Shown piece by piece: positions 12,092-36,255 of a stretch of DNA of 50,426 nucleotides. Location: positions 1-50,426 of the forward strand of contig JAENZQ010000026.1 of NCBI GenBank assembly GCA_016841185.1, read 5' to 3'. The DNA comes from Anaerovorax odorimutans (GTDB lineage Bacteria; Bacillota; Clostridia; Peptostreptococcales; JAAYPU01). Within the stretch, counting starts at the first letter, position 1. Every line of letters starts with the position of its first letter. Under the pieces are notes generated by a model. It was not told where the DNA came from. It worked only from the letters and a program-made list of their open reading frames with translations, and did no database searches. The translations under genes were made by a program, and so were the position numbers.

Positions 12092-12262
12092 ACATGATAC
12101 CTCCTGTTTAAAAAAGTTTACTCCAATTATGATTTTACCTGAATCCCTTTGGCAATTACAACCATAATAACAAAAAGAAAAATTCTTTTTAAATCAAAAA
12201 TTGCAAATCTGCGAAAAAATATATTAAATATCTCTTTCAAACAAAGTTGAATGGTTAATTAA

Positions 12263-12296
12263 GGTAGAAACTATGACTGTGTCATAGTTTCAGACC
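12263..12296. repeat. Dispersed 34-bp hairpin (GAAACTAT family)
   Basis: A perfect 11-base stem GAAACTATGAC (12267-12277) pairs with GTCATAGTTTC (12281-12291) around TGT, flanked by GGT and ACC. It is the reverse-complement version of hairpins at 33264-33297 and 33845-33878, with a decayed copy at 23191-23224. It lies between bioY and the LUD gene. Confidence 0.7.
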
Positions 12297-12334
12297 ATAA
12301 CTGTTATCTATTATCTTATTACTACCTCTAACAA

Positions 12335-28271: not shown

Positions 28272-28306
28272 AGAAGAGGCCTCCAGCCTCTTCTCTATTT
28301 TTTTGA
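28272..28306 (+). terminator. Terminator of cwlJ-gerQ
   Basis: Stem AGAAGAGGC (28272-28280) and GCCTCTTCT (28286-28294), then CTATTTTTTT. The convergent ileS stop codon starts at the base just beyond the stem (28297-28295), so the T tract is the antisense of its last Lys codons. Confidence 0.88.
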
Positions 28307-31300
28307 TACTCTTTCCACATAAATCCCTGTCTCACGCCCGTTGAGATCCTGGATTTCCATTTCTACAGATGCTTCTTCAAGCTTCAGTGCGAGGGTTTCT
28401 TTCATAATATAATCCTTAAACATCTCCAAAGCCTTTTCTACTTCATTATCGGCCCGATAATAAATATGAATATTGTCAAGCACTTCATAATCTTTATTCT
28501 TTCTCATTTGCTGGACCTTGGATACAAATTCTCTTGCCAATCCTTCATAGACCAGTTCTTTGGAAAGGGTTGTGTCCAAAATGGTAAACAAATTATTTTC
28601 CATAGTGACGGTAAATCCTTCTTTTGCCGATATGTTGATATCCACCAGTGACCTATCAATTTCTGTTTCTTCACCATCCAAATTTAAAGCGATTTTGCCT
28701 TGCGCTTCAAGCTGTGAAACAACTTCCGCTGCATCCAGAGTTGATAACACCTTAGCCAGAGATTTAACCTTCTTTCCTAAAACAGGGCCTGCTGCTTTGA
28801 AGTCAGGCTTCAGGCTATAGTTCATATATTTTTCCAGGTTTTTTTCAAAAACAACCTCTTTTACATTTAATTCTTCTTTAATAAGCTGTGTCATGTCACC
28901 AATTAAAGATTCATATTTGCCGTCTACCAGAATTTTCTGCAATGGTTGTCTGACTTTGATTTTCTCCTTTTCACGTGCTGAACGGCCAAGACCGACTAAA
29001 TCCCTGACAAGATCCATTCTTTCTTCGACTACAGCATCTATCAATGTTTCGTTGATTTCTGGATAAAAAGCCAGATGAACCGATTCTTCTCCGGAAAGCT
29101 TTTTATAGATTTCATCGGAAAGGAAAGGTGCAAAAGGTGCCATGAGCCTGGAAACACCTGATAATACTTCATAGGTGGTATTATAAACCGATATTTTGTC
29201 CTCGCTGAGCTCAGTCGCCCAGAAACGTCTTCTCGCCCTTCGAATATACCAGTTGGACAAATCCTCATCTACAAATTCTTGTATACTTCGCACCGCCTTC
29301 ATCAAATCATATACTTCCATCTCATCTATAACATTTTTAACCAGCTTATTGTATTTTGATAAAATCCATCGGTCCAATTCAGGTCTATTGTTATATTCAA
29401 TAAAGTCAGCTTTAGGATTCATATTATCCGTATTGGAATAAAGCACAAAGAAATTATAAACATTTCTCAGTGTTCCAAAAAACTTGCTCTGGATCTCTTT
29501 CAAACCTTCTTCATCAAATTTTGTCGGTGTCCATGCAGGAGAAACATAAAGAAGATACCATCTGGTAGCATCCGCTCCGTATTTTTCAAAAAGATTAAAA
29601 GGATCAACCGTATTTCCTCTGGATTTGGACATTTTCTTTCCTTCTTTATCCAATATCAAGTCATTTACCAGAACATTTTTATAAGGAGAAACACCTTTAA
29701 CAAAAGTGGAAATTGCTAAAAGCGAATAAAACCAGCCTCTTGTCTGATCGATCCCTTCGCATATAAAATCTGCCGGGAACAGTTCTTCATCAAATTTTTC
29801 ACTGTTTTCAAAAGGATAATGATGCTGGGCAAAAGGCATTGCCCCGCTGTCAAACCAGCAATCAATTACTTCACTGACTCTGGTCATAGTTTCACCACAT
29901 AGATTACATTTAATATGCACTTCATCTACATAAGGTCTGTGCAATTCAATATCTTCAGAGATTTCCTCAATAGCCTTTTCAACTAATTCCTTTCTTGAAC
30001 CGATGGATTGAAGATGACCACACTGACATTTCCAGATATTTAACGGTGTTCCCCAATATCTGTTTCTTGATAATGCCCAATCATTCAGATTCTCCAACCA
30101 GTTGCCAAATCTCTTCTCACCAACATAATCCGGATACCAGTTGACTGAATTGTTATTGGAAATTAAAAGATCTTTCAGTTTTGTCATTTCAATATACCAG
30201 CTTGGCTTAGCATAGTAGAGCAAAGGTGTTGAACACCGCCAGCAATGCGGGTAATTATGATCCATCTTTTCTTTTGAAAATAGCTTTCCTTCGGAATGCA
30301 ACCATTTAATGATGTCTACATCACAATCCATGACAAATTTGCCCTTCCAGGGGGTCTCAGTATATTTACCATCTTCTCCTACAGGGTTAGGGACAGGAAG
30401 ATCATATTTTCGACCAGTCCTATAGTCATCTTCACCAAAAGCAGGAGCAGTGTGAACAATACCGGTACCATCATCTGTTGTAACATAATCATTACATGTT
30501 ACATAAAAAGCTTTTTTATCTACTTTTACAAAAGGCATTAGTTGCTCATATTCAACATACTCCAGATCTTTTCCTTTCATAGTGTCTAATACGGTATACC
30601 CTTCTCCCAAAACCTTATCTGCGAGATTCTCAGCAACATAATAAACATTTCCTCTTGATTCTGCCTTAATATAATCCACATCCGGATGAACAGTAAGAGA
30701 AACATTTGAAGCAAGTGTCCATGGTGTTGTGGTCCATGCAAGAAAATATTCATCTGCATCTTTTCTTTTAAAGGCAGCAATCACCGTATTTGTCTTAACT
30801 TCTTTATAACCTAATGCTACTTCGTGGGAAGCCAGTCCTGTTCCGCATCTCGGACAATATGGTAATATCTTATGTCCTTCATAAATCATATCTTCGTCAA
30901 AAAACTTTTTTAATATCCACCATTCTGATTCTATATAATCGTTTTCAAGGGTTATATATGGGTTGTCCAGATCAATCATATAGCCCATTTTGCGTGTCAT
31001 ATCCCGCCATTGTCTTTCATAAGTAAAAACAGACTCTTTACATTTTTCATTAAATTTATCCATTCCATAAGCTTCTATTTCCTGCTTATTGGATAAATTC
31101 AACTGTTTTTCCACTTCTATTTCTACTGGCAGTCCATGAGTGTCCCATCCTGCTTTTCTTTTTACTTTGTATCCCCTCATTGTTTTATAGCGGCATACAC
31201 TATCTTTTAAAGTCCTGGCAATTACATGGTGAATCCCCGGCTTTCCGTTTGCTGTAGGAGGACCTTCATAGAATACAAAAGAAGGCTTTCCTTCTCGGGT

Positions 31301-31396
31301 TATAACACATTTTTCCAACAATCTATTCTGATCCCATTGATCTGACTGCAAACCCTGTACCTCTGCTATGGGGTTGTCCGATAAATTTTCAAACAT
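28295..31396 (-). CDS. ileS: Isoleucyl-tRNA synthetase, type 2 (eukaryote-like)
   Basis: A 1033-residue class I synthetase charging tRNA-Ile. Length and sequence fit the type-2 (eukaryote-like) IleRS, about 100 residues longer than the common bacterial type. Domains: catalytic with editing insertion (1-640), KMSKS present as KKMSKSRG near residue 597, anticodon-binding (about 690-850) and a long C-terminal domain. In place of HIGH the protein has GIHH at residues 54-57 (31226-31237), that is, the first and third positions are swapped. Type-2 enzymes are generally insensitive to mupirocin, and an altered GxHH signature has been reported in some of them. A T-box leader and promoter lie upstream. 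Confidence 0.95.
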   Translation of the reverse strand: MFENLSDNPIAEVQGLQSDQWDQNRLLEKCVITREGKPSFVFYEGPPTANGKPGIHHVIARTLKDSVCRYKTMRGYKVKRKAGWDTHGLPVEIEVEKQLNLSNKQEIEAYGMDKFNEKCKESVFTYERQWRDMTRKMGYMIDLDNPYITLENDYIESEWWILKKFFDEDMIYEGHKILPYCPRCGTGLASHEVALGYKEVKTNTVIAAFKRKDADEYFLAWTTTPWTLASNVSLTVHPDVDYIKAESRGNVYYVAENLADKVLGEGYTVLDTMKGKDLEYVEYEQLMPFVKVDKKAFYVTCNDYVTTDDGTGIVHTAPAFGEDDYRTGRKYDLPVPNPVGEDGKYTETPWKGKFVMDCDVDIIKWLHSEGKLFSKEKMDHNYPHCWRCSTPLLYYAKPSWYIEMTKLKDLLISNNNSVNWYPDYVGEKRFGNWLENLNDWALSRNRYWGTPLNIWKCQCGHLQSIGSRKELVEKAIEEISEDIELHRPYVDEVHIKCNLCGETMTRVSEVIDCWFDSGAMPFAQHHYPFENSEKFDEELFPADFICEGIDQTRGWFYSLLAISTFVKGVSPYKNVLVNDLILDKEGKKMSKSRGNTVDPFNLFEKYGADATRWYLLYVSPAWTPTKFDEEGLKEIQSKFFGTLRNVYNFFVLYSNTDNMNPKADFIEYNNRPELDRWILSKYNKLVKNVIDEMEVYDLMKAVRSIQEFVDEDLSNWYIRRARRRFWATELSEDKISVYNTTYEVLSGVSRLMAPFAPFLSDEIYKKLSGEESVHLAFYPEINETLIDAVVEERMDLVRDLVGLGRSAREKEKIKVRQPLQKILVDGKYESLIGDMTQLIKEELNVKEVVFEKNLEKYMNYSLKPDFKAAGPVLGKKVKSLAKVLSTLDAAEVVSQLEAQGKIALNLDGEETEIDRSLVDINISAKEGFTVTMENNLFTILDTTLSKELVYEGLAREFVSKVQQMRKNKDYEVLDNIHIYYRADNEVEKALEMFKDYIMKETLALKLEEASVEMEIQDLNGRETGIYVERVSKK
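31226..31237 (-). other. Altered HIGH signature (GIHH) in ileS
   Basis: Codons for residues 54-57 of the synthetase. The surrounding GPPTANGK aligns exactly with the usual GPPxANG before HIGH, so the motif is truly GIHH and not a misalignment. Confidence 0.85.
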
Positions 31397-31534: not shown

Positions 31535-31563
31535 AAAAAAATCCCTGGACAACTGTCCAGGGG
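31535..31563 (-). terminator. T-box attenuator terminator
   Basis: Stem CCCTGGAC (31543-31550) with GTCCAGGG (31555-31562), then on the minus strand ATTTTTTT. In the uncharged-tRNA state the T-box sequence would disrupt this stem. Confidence 0.9.
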
Positions 31564-31799
31564 CGATTAATCCGCGGTACCACCCTAGTTATAGGAAAAT
31601 AATCTAAACCTATATCTCTTTAATGCGTAACGTGTATAAAACGTGTATTCTTACTGTATATTTCAGAATACAAGCTCCAAGGTGATTTTCAGGTCCGCCT
31701 ATGTTAACAATCTCTCAGCTTTTCAATTGTCTCTCTTTAAACAGTACGGCCTTACTCTCCTCTTCTTCGCCTCTGCCATAATAAAGTTATACAATTCAT
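31535..31799 (-). promoter_or_regulatory. T-box riboswitch upstream of ileS
   Basis: On the minus strand: a stem I region beginning GAAGAAGAGGAGAGTAAG, then an AGAGAG run, GCTGAGAG, a candidate specifier in AAAATCACC (ATC at 31686-31684, an Ile codon), and the T-box core AGGGTGGTACCGCGG (31586-31572), followed by the terminator. It senses uncharged tRNA-Ile and allows read-through to ileS, which starts about 140 bases further on. Core motif certain; specifier is my reading. Confidence 0.93.
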
Positions 31800-31884: not shown

Positions 31885-33111
31885 TCACAATTTTTCAGCA
31901 ATCCTTGTAATCTTTTCTTCTGTTATGTGATCAGACAACTTTTTCTCTATCTCGTTTTTACTTACAATAACAGTCGGAACTTTTTCTATTCCTGACTTTG
32001 CCAGAAATCCTTTAGCTTTATAGATATCAATGGTATAGAAAAAATATCGGCCTTTTAGCTTTAGTTCCATTTTTTCTATAATTTTTAATAATTTTAATTG
32101 ATCTTCTTCAATTGAGTTATATATTAAAGTAATACTTGGCTTTTCTACTTTCATTCTTTTATTTTTAAAAGCTTTATTTCTGAGGAGATATTTTTCCGCA
32201 TGGATGCTTGCAATTGCACCATCTCCTGCACAGGTTACAACTTGTCTCAGGAATTTATTCCGTATATCACCAATTGCATATACCCCTTCGATATTTGTCT
32301 GCATGTTTTCATTGGTAATAATATAGCCATTTTCTGTCATGTCAACCATTCCCTTAAACAAATCCGCATTTGGTATATACCCGATAAATTCAAAGCAGGA
32401 CCTACAATCCACTTTTATCAGTTCATTTGTTTTCAAATTCTTTAGAACCACTTTTTCCAGTTGGTTATTTCCTTCAAAATGATTTACAGAAGTATTCCAA
32501 AGAATTTCAATTTTGGGATTATTCAGAGCAACATCTTTAAGCTCTTCACTGCAGTTCATTTTATCACTATCCACATTAACAGACAGAATCACTTTATCCG
32601 CGAATTTAGCCAAAAACAAACTTTCTTCTACAGCCATGTCCTCTGATCCTATTACCACTACTTTTTTTCCGGTATTCACAGCCGCATCACATACCGAACA
32701 GAAGGTAATGCCTTTTCCCAGATATTTATCTTCATTTTTTGCCCCGGTCACTTTGGGTTTTCCTCCTGAAGCAATTATAACCACTCTGGTTTCATATGTA
32801 TCCCGAAATGTCCATATTTTTTTAACATCGCCTTGGATATCCACTTTTCTCACATCTGTGAACCGGAAATGAACATTGAAACGTTTTGCCTGTTGATAAA
32901 ATAGATCCATCAAAGCTTTTCCCGTCATCCCTTCGGGAAAACCAGGATAATTTTCTATTTCATTCATATTTACGGCAAGTCCCCCCACCAGATTTTGTTC
33001 TATAATCAAAGTTTTCAGATTTGCACGCCCTGCATAAATTCCGGCACTTAAACCGGCAGGGCCTCCTCCGATGATTACTACATCATATTGTTCGATTTTT
33101 TTTTCTCTCAT
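31885..33111 (-). CDS. Thioredoxin-reductase-like flavoprotein 1, Trx-fold tail
   Basis: A 408-residue protein: FAD-binding GGGPAG near the start, a CSVC redox pair (usual CATC), a second Rossmann site and EGVYAIGD, as in TrxB, then a C-terminal thioredoxin-fold domain of about 80 residues. The second Rossmann glycine motif reads GSEDMA instead of GxGxxA, and the HRR-type NADPH-phosphate site is replaced by VNVDSDK. The Trx tail has NSIEED where CGPC should be, yet keeps the cis-Pro (KVPT). The start at 33111 follows AAGGGAG; the in-frame extension upstream is made of a palindromic repeat. Either NADH or a protein donor such as ferredoxin may feed it. Confidence 0.78.
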   Translation of the reverse strand: MREKKIEQYDVVIIGGGPAGLSAGIYAGRANLKTLIIEQNLVGGLAVNMNEIENYPGFPEGMTGKALMDLFYQQAKRFNVHFRFTDVRKVDIQGDVKKIWTFRDTYETRVVIIASGGKPKVTGAKNEDKYLGKGITFCSVCDAAVNTGKKVVVIGSEDMAVEESLFLAKFADKVILSVNVDSDKMNCSEELKDVALNNPKIEILWNTSVNHFEGNNQLEKVVLKNLKTNELIKVDCRSCFEFIGYIPNADLFKGMVDMTENGYIITNENMQTNIEGVYAIGDIRNKFLRQVVTCAGDGAIASIHAEKYLLRNKAFKNKRMKVEKPSITLIYNSIEEDQLKLLKIIEKMELKLKGRYFFYTIDIYKAKGFLAKSGIEKVPTVIVSKNEIEKKLSDHITEEKITRIAEKL

Positions 33112-33134
33112 AATATCTCCCTTATTCATATTTA

Positions 33135-33157
33135 GGGATAGCCCTTGCGGCTGTCCC
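33135..33157. repeat. Second GGGACAGCC-type hairpin
   Basis: Stem GGGATAGCC (33135-33143), loop CTTGC, stem GGCTGTCCC (33149-33157), matching the hairpin at 7079-7107 apart from one base and the outer three pairs. It lies just upstream of the flavoprotein 1 start. Confidence 0.7.
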
Positions 33158-33263
33158 ACAAGTAACTCCTTCGAAGTAGCATAAGCGTAAGTATAAGCAA
33201 CTCCTGCAGAGCAGCGTGTAAGTAGTTTAAAAGATTAGGGATTTAGAATCAGATAACAGTTGC

Positions 33264-33297
33264 GGTCAGAAACTATAGCAAAGCTATAGTTTCTACC
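33264..33297. repeat. Dispersed 34-bp hairpin, copy A
   Basis: Perfect 12-base stem AGAAACTATAGC (33268-33279) with GCTATAGTTTCT (33283-33294) around AAA, bounded by GGTC and ACC. Identical to 33845-33878. Confidence 0.8.
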
Positions 33298-33476
33298 TTT
33301 ATGCTATGATGAAGATTCTGTGTAACAAAATCCTCGTTAACTATTATTTGTTATTTATTATCTCTTATCTGGTCCTTTGATGATCCTCTGCCATCTGTCC
33401 TGTTACCTTAGATCTTTTTCTGTCCCCTGTCTCCTGTCACCTGTTGCCTGTTACCTTAGATCCTACATCATAGATC

Positions 33477-33704
33477 CTAATTAGTTTTCTCAATAATGAT
33501 CTCCCATTCTCCATCATCGATTTCTTCAATTTCAACATGATAACCTTTTTTCCTTGCCCAATCCGGTAAATTTTTCATGGCACACATATGATCAACCTGA
33601 ACAATCAAAACATCGCCTGCTTCCAATTCTTTCAAACGGTTTTCAGTATTTACCAGTGATTCAGGACATGATTCTCCTAAACAATCCAATACATATTCTT
33701 TCAA
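33477..33704 (-). CDS. TusA-like sulfur carrier 1
   Basis: A 75-residue TusA/SirA-fold protein. The functional Cys-Pro lies in CLGESCPESL near residues 7-16, as in TusA, which carries persulfide sulfur. The TTG at 33704 is preferred as start: AAAGGAG lies seven bases before it, and the resulting MKEYVLDCLG matches the start of TusA2. An alternative ATG seven codons upstream has GAGGGG. Set between flavoproteins 1 and 2, it may move sulfur (or selenium) in a reductive pathway; no sulfurtransferase is adjacent. Confidence 0.8.
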   Translation of the reverse strand: MKEYVLDCLGESCPESLVNTENRLKELEAGDVLIVQVDHMCAMKNLPDWARKKGYHVEIEEIDDGEWEIIIEKTN

Positions 33705-34011
33705 ATCAAAACTCCTTTCGCACATATCAATACCCCTCTATTATAAGTGTAAATAACTCCTGCGAATTAGCATGAGTGTAAGTAGTTTAAAAGATTAGAG
33801 ATTTAGAATCAGATAACAGATAACGGATAATAGATAACAGTTGCGGTCAGAAACTATAGCAAAGCTATAGTTTCTACCTTTATGCTATGATGAAGATTCT
33901 GTGTAACAAAATCCTCGTTAACTATTATTTGTTATTTATTATCTCTTATCTGGTCCTTTGATGATCCTCTGCCATCTGTCACCTGTAACCTTAGATCCTA
34001 CATCATAGATC
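33705..34011. repeat. Spacer B: near-identical copy of spacer A
   Basis: About 280 bases (33745-34020) that repeat 33161-33480 almost base for base, including the 34-bp hairpin and a GATTCTG...CAAAATC hairpin (33894-33912). Spacer B has an extra ATAACGGATAATAG-type insert, spacer A an extra CTGTCCCCTGTC-type insert. No gene. Confidence 0.85.
33845..33878. repeat. Dispersed 34-bp hairpin, copy B
   Basis: Same perfect 12-base stem as copy A: AGAAACTATAGC (33849-33860), AAA, GCTATAGTTTCT (33864-33875). Confidence 0.8.
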
Positions 34012-34242
34012 CTAATTAGTTTTCTCAATAATAACCTCCCATTCACCATCATTGATTTCCATAATTTCCACATGATGCCCTTTTTCTCTTGCCCAAGCCG
34101 GGACTTTTGTTCCTGCACAAATATGATTGATCTGAACAATCAAAAAATCGCCTGCATTCAATTGTTCCAATGCTTCTTCCGTCCTTTTCATGGATATTCG
34201 ACAGTCTTCTTCTCCAATACAATTCAATACAACTTCTTTCAT
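34012..34242 (-). CDS. TusA-like protein 2, Cys-Pro motif changed
   Basis: A 76-residue paralogue of the previous gene, with the same EWExIIEKTN end. The position of Cys-Pro reads DCRIS: the Cys is kept, the Pro is lost. Two Cys remain in the N-terminal CIGEEDC and one in HICAG. ATG at 34242 follows GGGAGGGG. Its leader contains competing hairpins (see 34281-34350). Loss of the Pro may change persulfide reactivity; function inferred only from family. Confidence 0.75.
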   Translation of the reverse strand: MKEVVLNCIGEEDCRISMKRTEEALEQLNAGDFLIVQINHICAGTKVPAWAREKGHHVEIMEINDGEWEVIIEKTN

Positions 34243-35031
34243 ATTACCCCTCCCTGTTGAACACCAACCGCTTATATATTCCACCTACTAAGTAGGTGCC
34301 TTCAAAAGCCTTAAAAAATTGCAGTTTTTTAAAGGCTTATTTAGGTGTGGGTTTTTTTGCCTTTTTGCACTAATATCTTTTCAATCATTTTAAAATTAAA
34401 TCTTGACTATTTACCGCTATACTCATTTATATATTTGTATGAATCAAAAATCTCTACAAATTGATGAAAATATATTAAGAAAGCCTTAAGCTTTCATAGG
34501 GCTTTAAAGTGAATTAAATTTTAATTACTGATTGAAAAAGTTGATAACATATCCTGATAATTTTACTAATCAAGAATAAACTGTGAAAAGCGTTAAGATT
34601 GATTCTTCAGAAATGCTGTTTAAATTGCAATAATACTTGATTGTATTCCTATTGCAAATAATAATACTAAATAGATTTTTGACTTTTGACAATATATATT
34701 TCGCAGGCGTGTAAAATAAGATGTATAAATATATTGTGCTATTATTATATCTTATTTGTAAGTTTTTTCAACATAAATGCCGTTAAAAAGATTTAACAAA
34801 AGTACATTTCTAACATCATAATTTGCCTAAGGTTTGCATATATAGACTTGGTTTTTTGTATGTGTTATTTTTTTAACATATTCATTAAAGCTATTATACC
34901 ATTAATGTTTTTACATTTGTACTATTATCTTCTAATTTATTTAAAAATTATAAAGCTTCTTATTATGGTCTCAGTGGTACATGCTAATCCTCTGACATAC
35001 AATATAAATGTAAGCCGGTTTAACCATTTAA
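34243..35031. other. 789-bp gap: tusA2 leader and AT-rich sequence
   Basis: The longest gap between two genes in the window. The left 110 bases hold the structured tusA2 leader; 34385-35031 is very AT-rich and I see no conserved gene, RNA family or clear terminator for flavoprotein 2. A plus-strand frame of 66 codons (34848-35048) has no ribosome site and is probably chance. Confidence 0.55.
34281..34350 (-). promoter_or_regulatory. Structured leader of tusA2 with competing hairpins
   Basis: A perfect palindrome CACCTACTAAGTAGGTG (34282-34298) sits 40 bases before the tusA2 start. Next to it (34306-34338) is a stem AAGCCTT/AAGGCTT extended by A/T pairs. CCACACCTA (minus strand, from 34350) can pair with TAGGTGG, which also belongs to the palindrome, so two folds are mutually exclusive. 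It may be an attenuator, riboswitch or operator. On the plus strand the same region ends in GTTTTTTT and could act as a terminator. Confidence 0.45.
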
Positions 35032-36255
35032 CTATTCAAGGGCTTTAAGAATTGAACCTCTGGAAATATCCTCTGTTATAATACAGCTCACCTTTCCATA
35101 CTTAATAATGGCAACAGCAGGAATTTTTTTTATTCCCAACCTATTTGCAAGGCCTTTTGATTTATAGATATCGATTTTATTGAAATAGAACTGTTTTTTA
35201 TATGTTTCTTCCATCTTTTCAATCTCAACAAGTAAATTCCTCTGTTCCGGTTCAATTGCGTTAAATACATAAGCAATACCCGGTCTATCTTTTTTTGTAA
35301 TCAGACTTTTAAAGGCTTCACTTTCTGCAATATATTTTTCTACTTCTACACCTGCTGTAGCCCCATCTCCTACGCAAGTTGCAACCTGCCGCAGATATTT
35401 TTCTCGGACATCTCCTATGGCGTAAACACCTTCTATATTTGTTTCCATCTTTTCATTCGTGACAATATAACCTTTCTCTGTTATGTTGATCACTCCTTTA
35501 AAAAGGTCGGTATTCGGAATATACCCAATGAATTCAAAACAGGTATGGCAATCAATTGTTATGAGTTCTCCTGTTTTAAGATTTTTAAGGACAACAGCCT
35601 TCAGCTGCTCACCCCCTTTAAAATGGTCAACTTCAGTATTCCATTTAAATTCTATTTTGCTATTCTTCAATGCAGCTTCTTTTGTTAGCTCATTACAGTC
35701 CATTTTCTCTTTATCGTGTATAACCGATACAACAACTTTGTCAGCAAATTTTGTAAGAAAAATACTTTCTTCTATTGCAGTATCACCGGAACCTATTACT
35801 ACAACTATTTTTCCCTTTTTGGCCGTTGCATCACAAGTAGCACAAAATGCAATCCCTTTTCCCAGATAATCCTGTTCTTTATCTGCTCCTGTCATTCTTG
35901 GCCGGCCGCCGGAAGCGATAATCACTGCTTTTGCTTCATAAATATTTCTAAATGTCTCGACTTTTTTTATTTCTCCTTTCAAATGTACCTTTCTGACATC
36001 CGTAAATTTAAATTTCACATTGAATTTTTTTGCCTGTTGGTAAAAAAGTTCCATCAGCCCTTTCCCAGTTACCCCCTCAGGAAACCCCGGATAATTTTGT
36101 ATTTCATTTGTGTTGGTAGCGAGTCCTCCCACCAATGCCTGTTCTATTATTAAAGTATTCAATCTTGCACGCCCTGCATATATAGCAGCCGTCATTCCTG
36201 CTGCGCCGCCGCCAATTATTACAACATCATACTCCTCGACTTTCTTTCCTCCCAT
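35032..36255 (-). CDS. Thioredoxin-reductase-like flavoprotein 2, Trx-fold tail
   Basis: A 407-residue paralogue of flavoprotein 1. FAD site GGGAAG near residues 15-20, redox pair CATC at 138-141, intact second Rossmann GSGDTA, EGVYAIGD near residue 284, then a thioredoxin-like domain (about 325-407) with NAIEPE in place of CGPC and the cis-Pro in KIPA. The HRR motif for NADPH is absent (VIHDKEKM). The redox-active disulfide makes a reductase role likely, possibly with NADH or reduced ferredoxin. AAAGGAG lies ten bases before the ATG. Confidence 0.82.
   Translation of the reverse strand: MGGKKVEEYDVVIIGGGAAGMTAAIYAGRARLNTLIIEQALVGGLATNTNEIQNYPGFPEGVTGKGLMELFYQQAKKFNVKFKFTDVRKVHLKGEIKKVETFRNIYEAKAVIIASGGRPRMTGADKEQDYLGKGIAFCATCDATAKKGKIVVVIGSGDTAIEESIFLTKFADKVVVSVIHDKEKMDCNELTKEAALKNSKIEFKWNTEVDHFKGGEQLKAVVLKNLKTGELITIDCHTCFEFIGYIPNTDLFKGVINITEKGYIVTNEKMETNIEGVYAIGDVREKYLRQVATCVGDGATAGVEVEKYIAESEAFKSLITKKDRPGIAYVFNAIEPEQRNLLVEIEKMEETYKKQFYFNKIDIYKSKGLANRLGIKKIPAVAIIKYGKVSCIITEDISRGSILKALE

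Follow-up and report, generated by a model that had tools for sequence, protein, structure and literature searches.

Genes of the cluster

The window analysed here, a contig of 50,426 nucleotides (nt) from Anaerovorax odorimutans (JAENZQ010000026.1), contains on its minus strand four open reading frames (ORFs; 31885-33159, 33477-33725, 34012-34284 and 35032-36255) that encode two TrxB-like flavoproteins around two TusA-like proteins. The initial annotation, made from the sequence alone, had pointed out this arrangement, and the ORF list of the window together with Pfam searches bears it out: the four-gene cluster is real. Upstream sequence and homologues point to an ATG at 33111 as the likelier start of trxB1 and an ATG at 34242 as that of tusA3. 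In the order of transcription, the cluster and its downstream border read as follows:

35032-36255, minus strand: trxB4, a TrxB-type FAD/NAD(P) disulfide reductase (CATC) with a C-terminal thioredoxin fold lacking CxxC; orthologue of the cassette TrxB of relatives
34012-34242, minus strand: tusA3, TusA family, with CRIS in place of CPxP (the Cys is retained and preceded by a one-residue insertion) and a second Cys in NHIC
33477-33725, minus strand: tusA2, TusA family, with CPES in place of CPxP and a second Cys in DHMC
31885-33111, minus strand: trxB1, a second fused TrxB (CSVC), paralogue of trxB4, in which the second Gly of GxGxxA is replaced by Glu
31556-31776, minus strand: ileS T-box leader, which borders the cluster downstream and is followed by the ileS gene itself

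Both flavoproteins are 407-408 amino acids (aa) long and contain a Pyr_redox_2 domain (149 and 160.6 bits; cut-off 26.1). They miss the cut-off of the TrxB model TIGR01292 (326.9 and 324.8 bits; cut-off 343.45), and membership of TIGR03143 and TIGR03140 (AhpF) was rejected, the scores being far below cut-off. By fold comparison, trxB4 is 43% identical to the best solved thioredoxin reductase. The C-terminal domain, of about 90 residues, has a profile that matches thioredoxins across 92 positions, and scores against the Pfam thioredoxin domain above the cut-off of 23.5 bits in trxB4 (27.4) and below it in trxB1 (14.3). The model of this domain in trxB4 reached a predicted local distance difference test score (pLDDT) of 90.7, its best match in the PDB being E. 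coli thioredoxin from the thioredoxin reductase complex; the full-length trxB4 model was only fair (pLDDT 82.3, weak at residues 40-63).

The two small proteins both match TusA (PF01206; 77.2 and 44.6 bits, cut-off 28.6) and miss the TsuB/YeeD model NF041048 (39.3 and 29.8 bits, cut-off 147.5). The whole genome encodes three TusA domains only, two of them in this cluster. The third lies in an 829-aa protein (C68, L153:3726-6215), which we take to be a CoA-disulfide-reductase-type fusion; it shows weak matches to the cassette TrxB and to rhodanese, and its gene adjoins an ArsR-like gene.

A conserved YeeE-TusA-YeeE-TrxB cassette in relatives

In a scan covering about 85,000 species genomes, the TrxB class closer to that of the window is present at 20 loci (L069-L087 and L129) among the 80 top-scoring of 227 relatives; these belong to Clostridia, unplaced Bacillota, three spirochaetes and one Calditrichales. 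With a threshold of >500 bits, this class was found in 9 of 60 genomes, the window's own genome counted. Geosporobacter ferrireducens and Oceanirhabdus are among the carriers of the cassette. The fused TrxB of these relatives stands at the end of a cassette that begins with the N-terminal half of a YeeE transporter and continues with one or two TusA proteins and the C-terminal half of YeeE. Profiles built from the loci detect the full cassette in 25 of 28 relatives' loci; two of the three exceptions (L064 and L066) are truncated at a contig end with the YeeE C-half still present, and the third (L068, from the related genus G002, in the window's family) has none. The same profiles were positive at 0 of 81 ordinary TrxB loci, 21 of which had flanks of only about 1.5 kb. 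The YeeE and TusA profiles derive from the loci that they count, and independent checks are provided by Pfam PF04143 and by a phylum sample of 398 genomes, which was not used for the search models save for one shared locus (L154 = L129). In this sample the cassette TrxB class was present in 26 genomes (27 matches) at 613 bits or above, followed by a gap to 457 bits, and TusA and a YeeE C-half lay upstream in 24 of the 25 non-self loci, the exception (L179) starting at a contig end; L157, which is the window itself, was excluded from the counts. Chance proximity of TusA and fused TrxB was rejected on the strength of the negative controls, and the idea of the initial annotation that the two belong together, which it had tied to conservation of the neighbourhood in related genomes, survives the comparison. 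A description of the YeeE-TusA-YeeE-TrxB arrangement was not found in the open-access literature, a scope outside which most subscription papers lie.

The 27 cassette TrxB rows form a single clade with 100/100 support, in a tree that has one misread outgroup row inside the clade. The outgroup rows L028 and L104 in one tree and L014 in the other are wrong-strand readings with a branch length of 10 and were disregarded, and alignment A1 leaves out the cassette loci L065, L066, L079 and L086 (atypical start, truncation at a contig end, or no open frame picked). All 27 rows retain the redox CxxC of the NAD(P) domain, as do trxB4 (CATC) and trxB1 (CSVC). The same domain contains two class-specific cysteines, Cys239 (27/27 cassette rows vs 0/81 ordinary TrxB) and Cys187 (25/27 vs 0/81), the latter where the NADPH motif would lie, and both may take part in the chemistry. 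A CxxC at the active-site place of the fused Trx domain occurs in 3 of the 27 rows, all from spirochaetes. In six other rows (L064, L075, L076, L081, L083 and L085), and in the cassette TrxB of phylum-sample loci L159-L161, the Trx domain has no CxxC and one is found close to the C-terminus instead, which looks like a relocation of the redox pair.

A second, lower-scoring fusion class was found in 22 genomes of the phylum sample, and TusA and YeeE were absent from all four of its loci that were examined (flanks of at most 1.5 kb). This class, together with the TrxB-Trx fold fusion and the retained reductase CxxC of the cassette enzymes, would fit a role in general thiol redox, in which an NTRC-like reductase acts on thioredoxin or peroxiredoxin targets and the linkage to TusA is regulatory or accidental. 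We consider such a role improbable: the Trx domain of the window proteins lacks a CxxC, a separate ordinary TrxB (C71) is present elsewhere in the same genome, and the operon association of the cassette-type enzyme is nearly invariant.

Several other genes recur around the cassette in the 28 loci, namely those for an ATP-grasp enzyme (18 loci), an SsuA-like binding protein (17), a GT2 glycosyltransferase (16), a DegT aminotransferase (16), an ABC permease (14), rhodanese proteins (7) and a PMT-type membrane protein (6). An example of this neighbour set, including glycan-type genes beside the sulfur operon, is found at L061:2570-17515.

Duplication and probable transporter loss in the window's family

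The nearest related genus, G001, carries the whole cassette and, 7 kb further on, a second unit consisting of tusA (CRVS), tusA (CPES) and trxB (CSVC). The window genes tusA3-tusA2-trxB1 correspond to this second unit, with identical order and motif changes: tusA2 is 84% identical to the G001 tusA2, which likewise has CPES, and the tusA3 counterparts read CRVS in G001 and CHLS beside ileS in G002. The remaining gene, trxB4, corresponds to the cassette TrxB and is 82% identical to that of G001. In the trees, trxB1 groups with the TrxB of the second G001 unit with 100/100 support, and this pair joins the two cassette TrxB proteins of the family (95/92 in one tree, 93/93 in another); tusA-tusA-trxB was thus duplicated within the window's family.

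No PF04143 (YeeE/YedE) transporter is encoded anywhere in the window's genome, which is listed as 100% complete, and the cassette-derived profiles detected no YeeE-type halves in the window. The cassette ATP-grasp gene is represented in the genome by one stop-containing fragment, and no other cassette genes were found in the 50-kb window apart from distantly related LysR and ABC-ATPase genes. In G002 (92% complete) there is one tusA3-type gene (CHLS), beside ileS, plus a TrxB without a Trx domain. Relatives encode the transporter within this very operon; its absence therefore characterises this lineage and is best interpreted as a loss. The statement of the initial annotation that no transporter lies nearby holds for YeeE-type transporters in the window and even in the genome, but not as a feature of the design, the operon of relatives containing a split YeeE/YedE; an undescribed transporter-free system was rejected on the same grounds.

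The genes that stayed behind show signs of purifying selection. The ratio of non-synonymous to synonymous substitution rates (dN/dS) is about 0.03 for trxB4 and about 0.07 for trxB1, next to 0.03 for ileS (vs G002), ratios that are rough because dS is near saturation; the proportions of non-synonymous and synonymous differences (pN and pS) are 0.083 and 0.79 for tusA2 and 0.166 and 0.78 for tusA3, with pS saturated. A pseudogene reading was rejected in view of this selection signal. Could the cluster nevertheless be a decaying remnant, functionless since the loss of the transporter? The missing transporter, the broken ATP-grasp gene, the repeats in the gaps, the loss of CPxP and the reduced state of G002 all go in that direction. 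Against this, the frames are open, the dN/dS values are low, as is pN relative to pS, and the same motif changes have been preserved in two genera, so that we regard decay as very improbable.

Proposed function

We propose that the cluster derives, with loss of the transporter, from a sulfur-import cassette in which the fused TrxB reduces a persulfide or thiosulfonate carried by TusA, and we give this reading a probability of roughly 0.55. In the intact cassette, the split YeeE/YedE would load the CPxP Cys of TusA with thiosulfate or sulfane sulfur. Electrons would then pass from NAD(P)H through FAD and the CxxC to TusA-S-SH or TusA-S-SO3, with the output of sulfide and the freeing of TusA, and the fused Trx domain would act as a relay where its CxxC is kept or as a docking piece, as in the window. 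After the duplication and divergence of tusA-tusA-trxB in the window's family, this genome would have lost the transporter halves, the other cassette genes being gone here, and the remaining reductases, together with the TusA proteins in their altered form, would handle sulfane sulfur of intracellular origin, for which the 829-aa TusA-domain fusion is, as a guess, one possible source. The data establish the domains, the conservation of the operon, the duplication, the lack of the transporter in the genome and the purifying selection; we infer in which direction electrons flow, what the substrate is, that TusA is the natural partner and what the pair does now that the importer is gone. Thiosulfate and zero-valent sulfur are both possible substrates, the latter because a split YedE1E2 is described as moving it (PMC10812762). 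A wider version is put forward tentatively. In it, the complete cassette would be a reductive sulfur-import machine made up of a split YeeE channel, TusA as acceptor and a dedicated NAD(P)H:TusA-persulfide reductase, a group translocation of sulfur that reductive unloading drives; the duplicated, transporter-free branch in the window, with altered TusA carriers (C-R-x-S and CPES) and a reductase of its own, would have been re-tasked to internal sulfur. As for the redox pair of TusA and a flavin disulfide reductase suggested by the initial annotation, it fits reductive sulfur chemistry and sits in a conserved neighbourhood; what falls away is its transporter-free design, as the relatives have the importer.

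Several points weigh against the proposed reduction of TusA-bound sulfur by the fused TrxB, among them the roughness of the dN/dS ratios. HRRxxxR is the NADPH motif of TrxB; it occurs in 0 of the 27 cassette-clade rows, which have an HDxGKMDCNE-like motif instead, and the electron donor is uncertain for that reason, although the motif is weak as a test (its first two places, His and Arg, are found in 32 and 35, respectively, of the 81 ordinary TrxB rows). In trxB1, the Gly-to-Glu replacement affects the NAD(P)-binding motif, and neither trxB4 nor trxB1 has a CxxC, or redox cysteines, in the fused Trx domain. Neither TusA of the window has kept CPxP, a motif present in 58 of 58 operon TusA proteins of relatives (49 loci; second Cys in a DHxC-like motif), which makes the usual route of sulfur transfer less certain in the window than in relatives. 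The 747-nt gap after trxB4, with a promoter-like site inside it at 34771, suggests that the genes may be transcribed as two units. Lastly, the genome-wide searches covered PF04143, TusA and ATP-grasp, and those for the other cassette genes covered the window.

Selenium and the transporter

The initial annotation had left sulfur and selenium side by side, and the cassette could be a variant of the YedE/YedF/LysR_Se cluster that carries selenium rather than sulfur. The YeeE halves of G001 find their best NCBIfam match in YedE/FdhT (102.5 and 108.4 bits; cut-off 350) and its LysR in the selenium-associated LysR (179.5 bits; cut-off 250), the window's own genome carries selD (440 bits), and an in-frame TGA takes the position of a conserved transporter Cys in 10 of the 25 cassettes sampled. 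The YedE/FdhT and LysR matches are, however, all below cut-off, and 6 of the 26 cassette genomes in the phylum sample have no selD, at a completeness of 96-100% in five and of 95% in one. Nor is selD enriched (20/26 cassette genomes vs 240/372 others; Fisher p = 0.29), and true YedE is reported, in the accessible text of that study, to be exclusive to selenium users (PMC5322559). YedF was not among the annotated recurrent neighbours, although no search was aimed at it. Of the 29 genomes from which the loci come, which include many draft bins without a stated completeness, 18 had selD above cut-off. The selD counts indicate that the system is independent of selenium use, with a selenium role possible in some carriers; a selenium-only role was rejected on these counts, and selenium handling as the general function of the cassette appears unlikely.

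The TGA replaces the conserved Cys (GCNIG) of the YeeE C-half in L163-L169 and L171-L173, in two families, and is likely to encode selenocysteine (Sec), all ten genomes having selD. Sec-containing YeeE/YedE with the motif GUxSG already figures in the accessible portion of a review (PMC13188914); that motif seemingly corresponds to the Cys of the other half, and the Sec position in the C-half may be new. No consistent fold of a selenocysteine insertion sequence (SECIS) emerged around the TGA: RNAalifold found a short stem in the consensus, but the single-sequence folds disagreed and a hand-set structure did not fit.

The likely selenocysteine also bears on another explanation, that the fused TrxB serves the transporter by keeping the YeeE cysteines (or selenocysteine) reduced, TusA merely docking. 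The TrxB gene comes directly after the YeeE C-half in the 25 intact loci of relatives and in 24 phylum-sample loci, as would be expected of such a partnership. The window reductases, in contrast, persist with TusA and without any YeeE, and the second unit of G001 (unit B) is a tusA-tusA-trxB set without a YeeE half of its own, which makes service to the transporter quite unlikely. The transporter-less copies of the window separate the link between reductase and TusA from that between reductase and transporter, and could thereby help to identify the true partner of the enzyme.

Comparison with known systems

The known kind to which the cassette belongs is YeeE-TusA sulfur uptake; the fused TrxB sets it apart as a variant, and the window holds a transporter-less derivative. 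NTRC and the AhpF-like fusions join a TrxB module to a Trx-fold domain. The window proteins share this combination and differ in that their Trx domain has lost its CxxC. Another flavoprotein to be compared, the NSR of Thermotoga maritima, is of the CoA-disulfide-reductase type. According to the available part of its description (PMC9431562), NSR is a cytoplasmic NAD(P)H flavoprotein that reduces thiosulfate or polysulfide, in an organism with a yeeE/dsrE/tusA unit whose yeeE is co-induced; NSR is encoded at a different locus from yeeE, whereas the cassette reductase is TrxB-type and lies inside the operon.

The YeeE-YeeD system (TsuA-TsuB) of E. coli and Spirochaeta thermophila resembles the cassette in its YeeE-family transporter and in its TusA-family partner with a thiosulfate-accepting CPxP Cys (PMC11073785, as far as available, like the statements on YeeD that follow). 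The conserved CPxP Cys is the centre of thiosulfate decomposition in S. thermophila YeeD and is needed in vivo in E. coli YeeD. In the cassette, unlike in that system, YeeE is split around TusA and followed by a fused TrxB, and the window's genome lacks YeeE and has an altered CPxP. The electron route for releasing the sulfur caught by YeeD is called "unknown" there, and the cassette TrxB is a concrete candidate for the reductase that is absent from the YeeE-TusA picture. The excerpted account of YedE1E2 from Cupriavidus, which imports zero-valent sulfur, also describes two half-transporters that are jointly required and Cys-dependent; that system is tied to persulfide oxidation (PDO), and the present cassette to a TrxB-type reductase and TusA (PMC10812762). 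The selenium YedE/YedF/LysR_Se cluster, as presented in the accessible text, shares a related transporter, a SirA/TusA domain and a LysR regulator with the cassette, and YedE is reported there to be split in archaea (PMC5322559). The cassette differs from it in the split transporter and the TrxB fusion and in occurring beyond selD genomes.

Spacers, repeats and neighbouring genes

Three intergenic features lie within the cluster:

34285-35031, minus strand: spacer between trxB4 and the tusA3 ORF, 747 nt (789 nt to the likely ATG)
33832-33980: one copy of a non-coding repeat that is dispersed in the genome, here lying between tusA3 and tusA2; its 149 nt match 33251-33399 without a difference
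33251-33399: the other copy, in the spacer that separates tusA2 from trxB1

No cassette genes were found in the 747-nt spacer; the same interval in G001 holds genes for a rhodanese, an ABC transporter and a membrane glycosyltransferase. The 286-nt and 365-nt gaps consist mostly of the dispersed repeat, which accounts for their width, and the two repeat-bearing spacers have been homogenised, the final codons of both tusA genes included. The repeat region has 48 matches genome-wide, one of which is the query itself, and no Rfam match at the gathering score; it resembles a miniature inverted-repeat transposable element (MITE), with further copies at 12258-12315 and on other contigs.

A GntR/ABC gene set lies directly upstream of the cluster. 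On the other side, behind the T-box, the isoleucyl-tRNA synthetase IleRS (28295-31396) scores 985 and 926 bits against the MupA and MupB models (cut-off 1900 each), MupA/MupB-type IleRS being the type related to mupirocin resistance.

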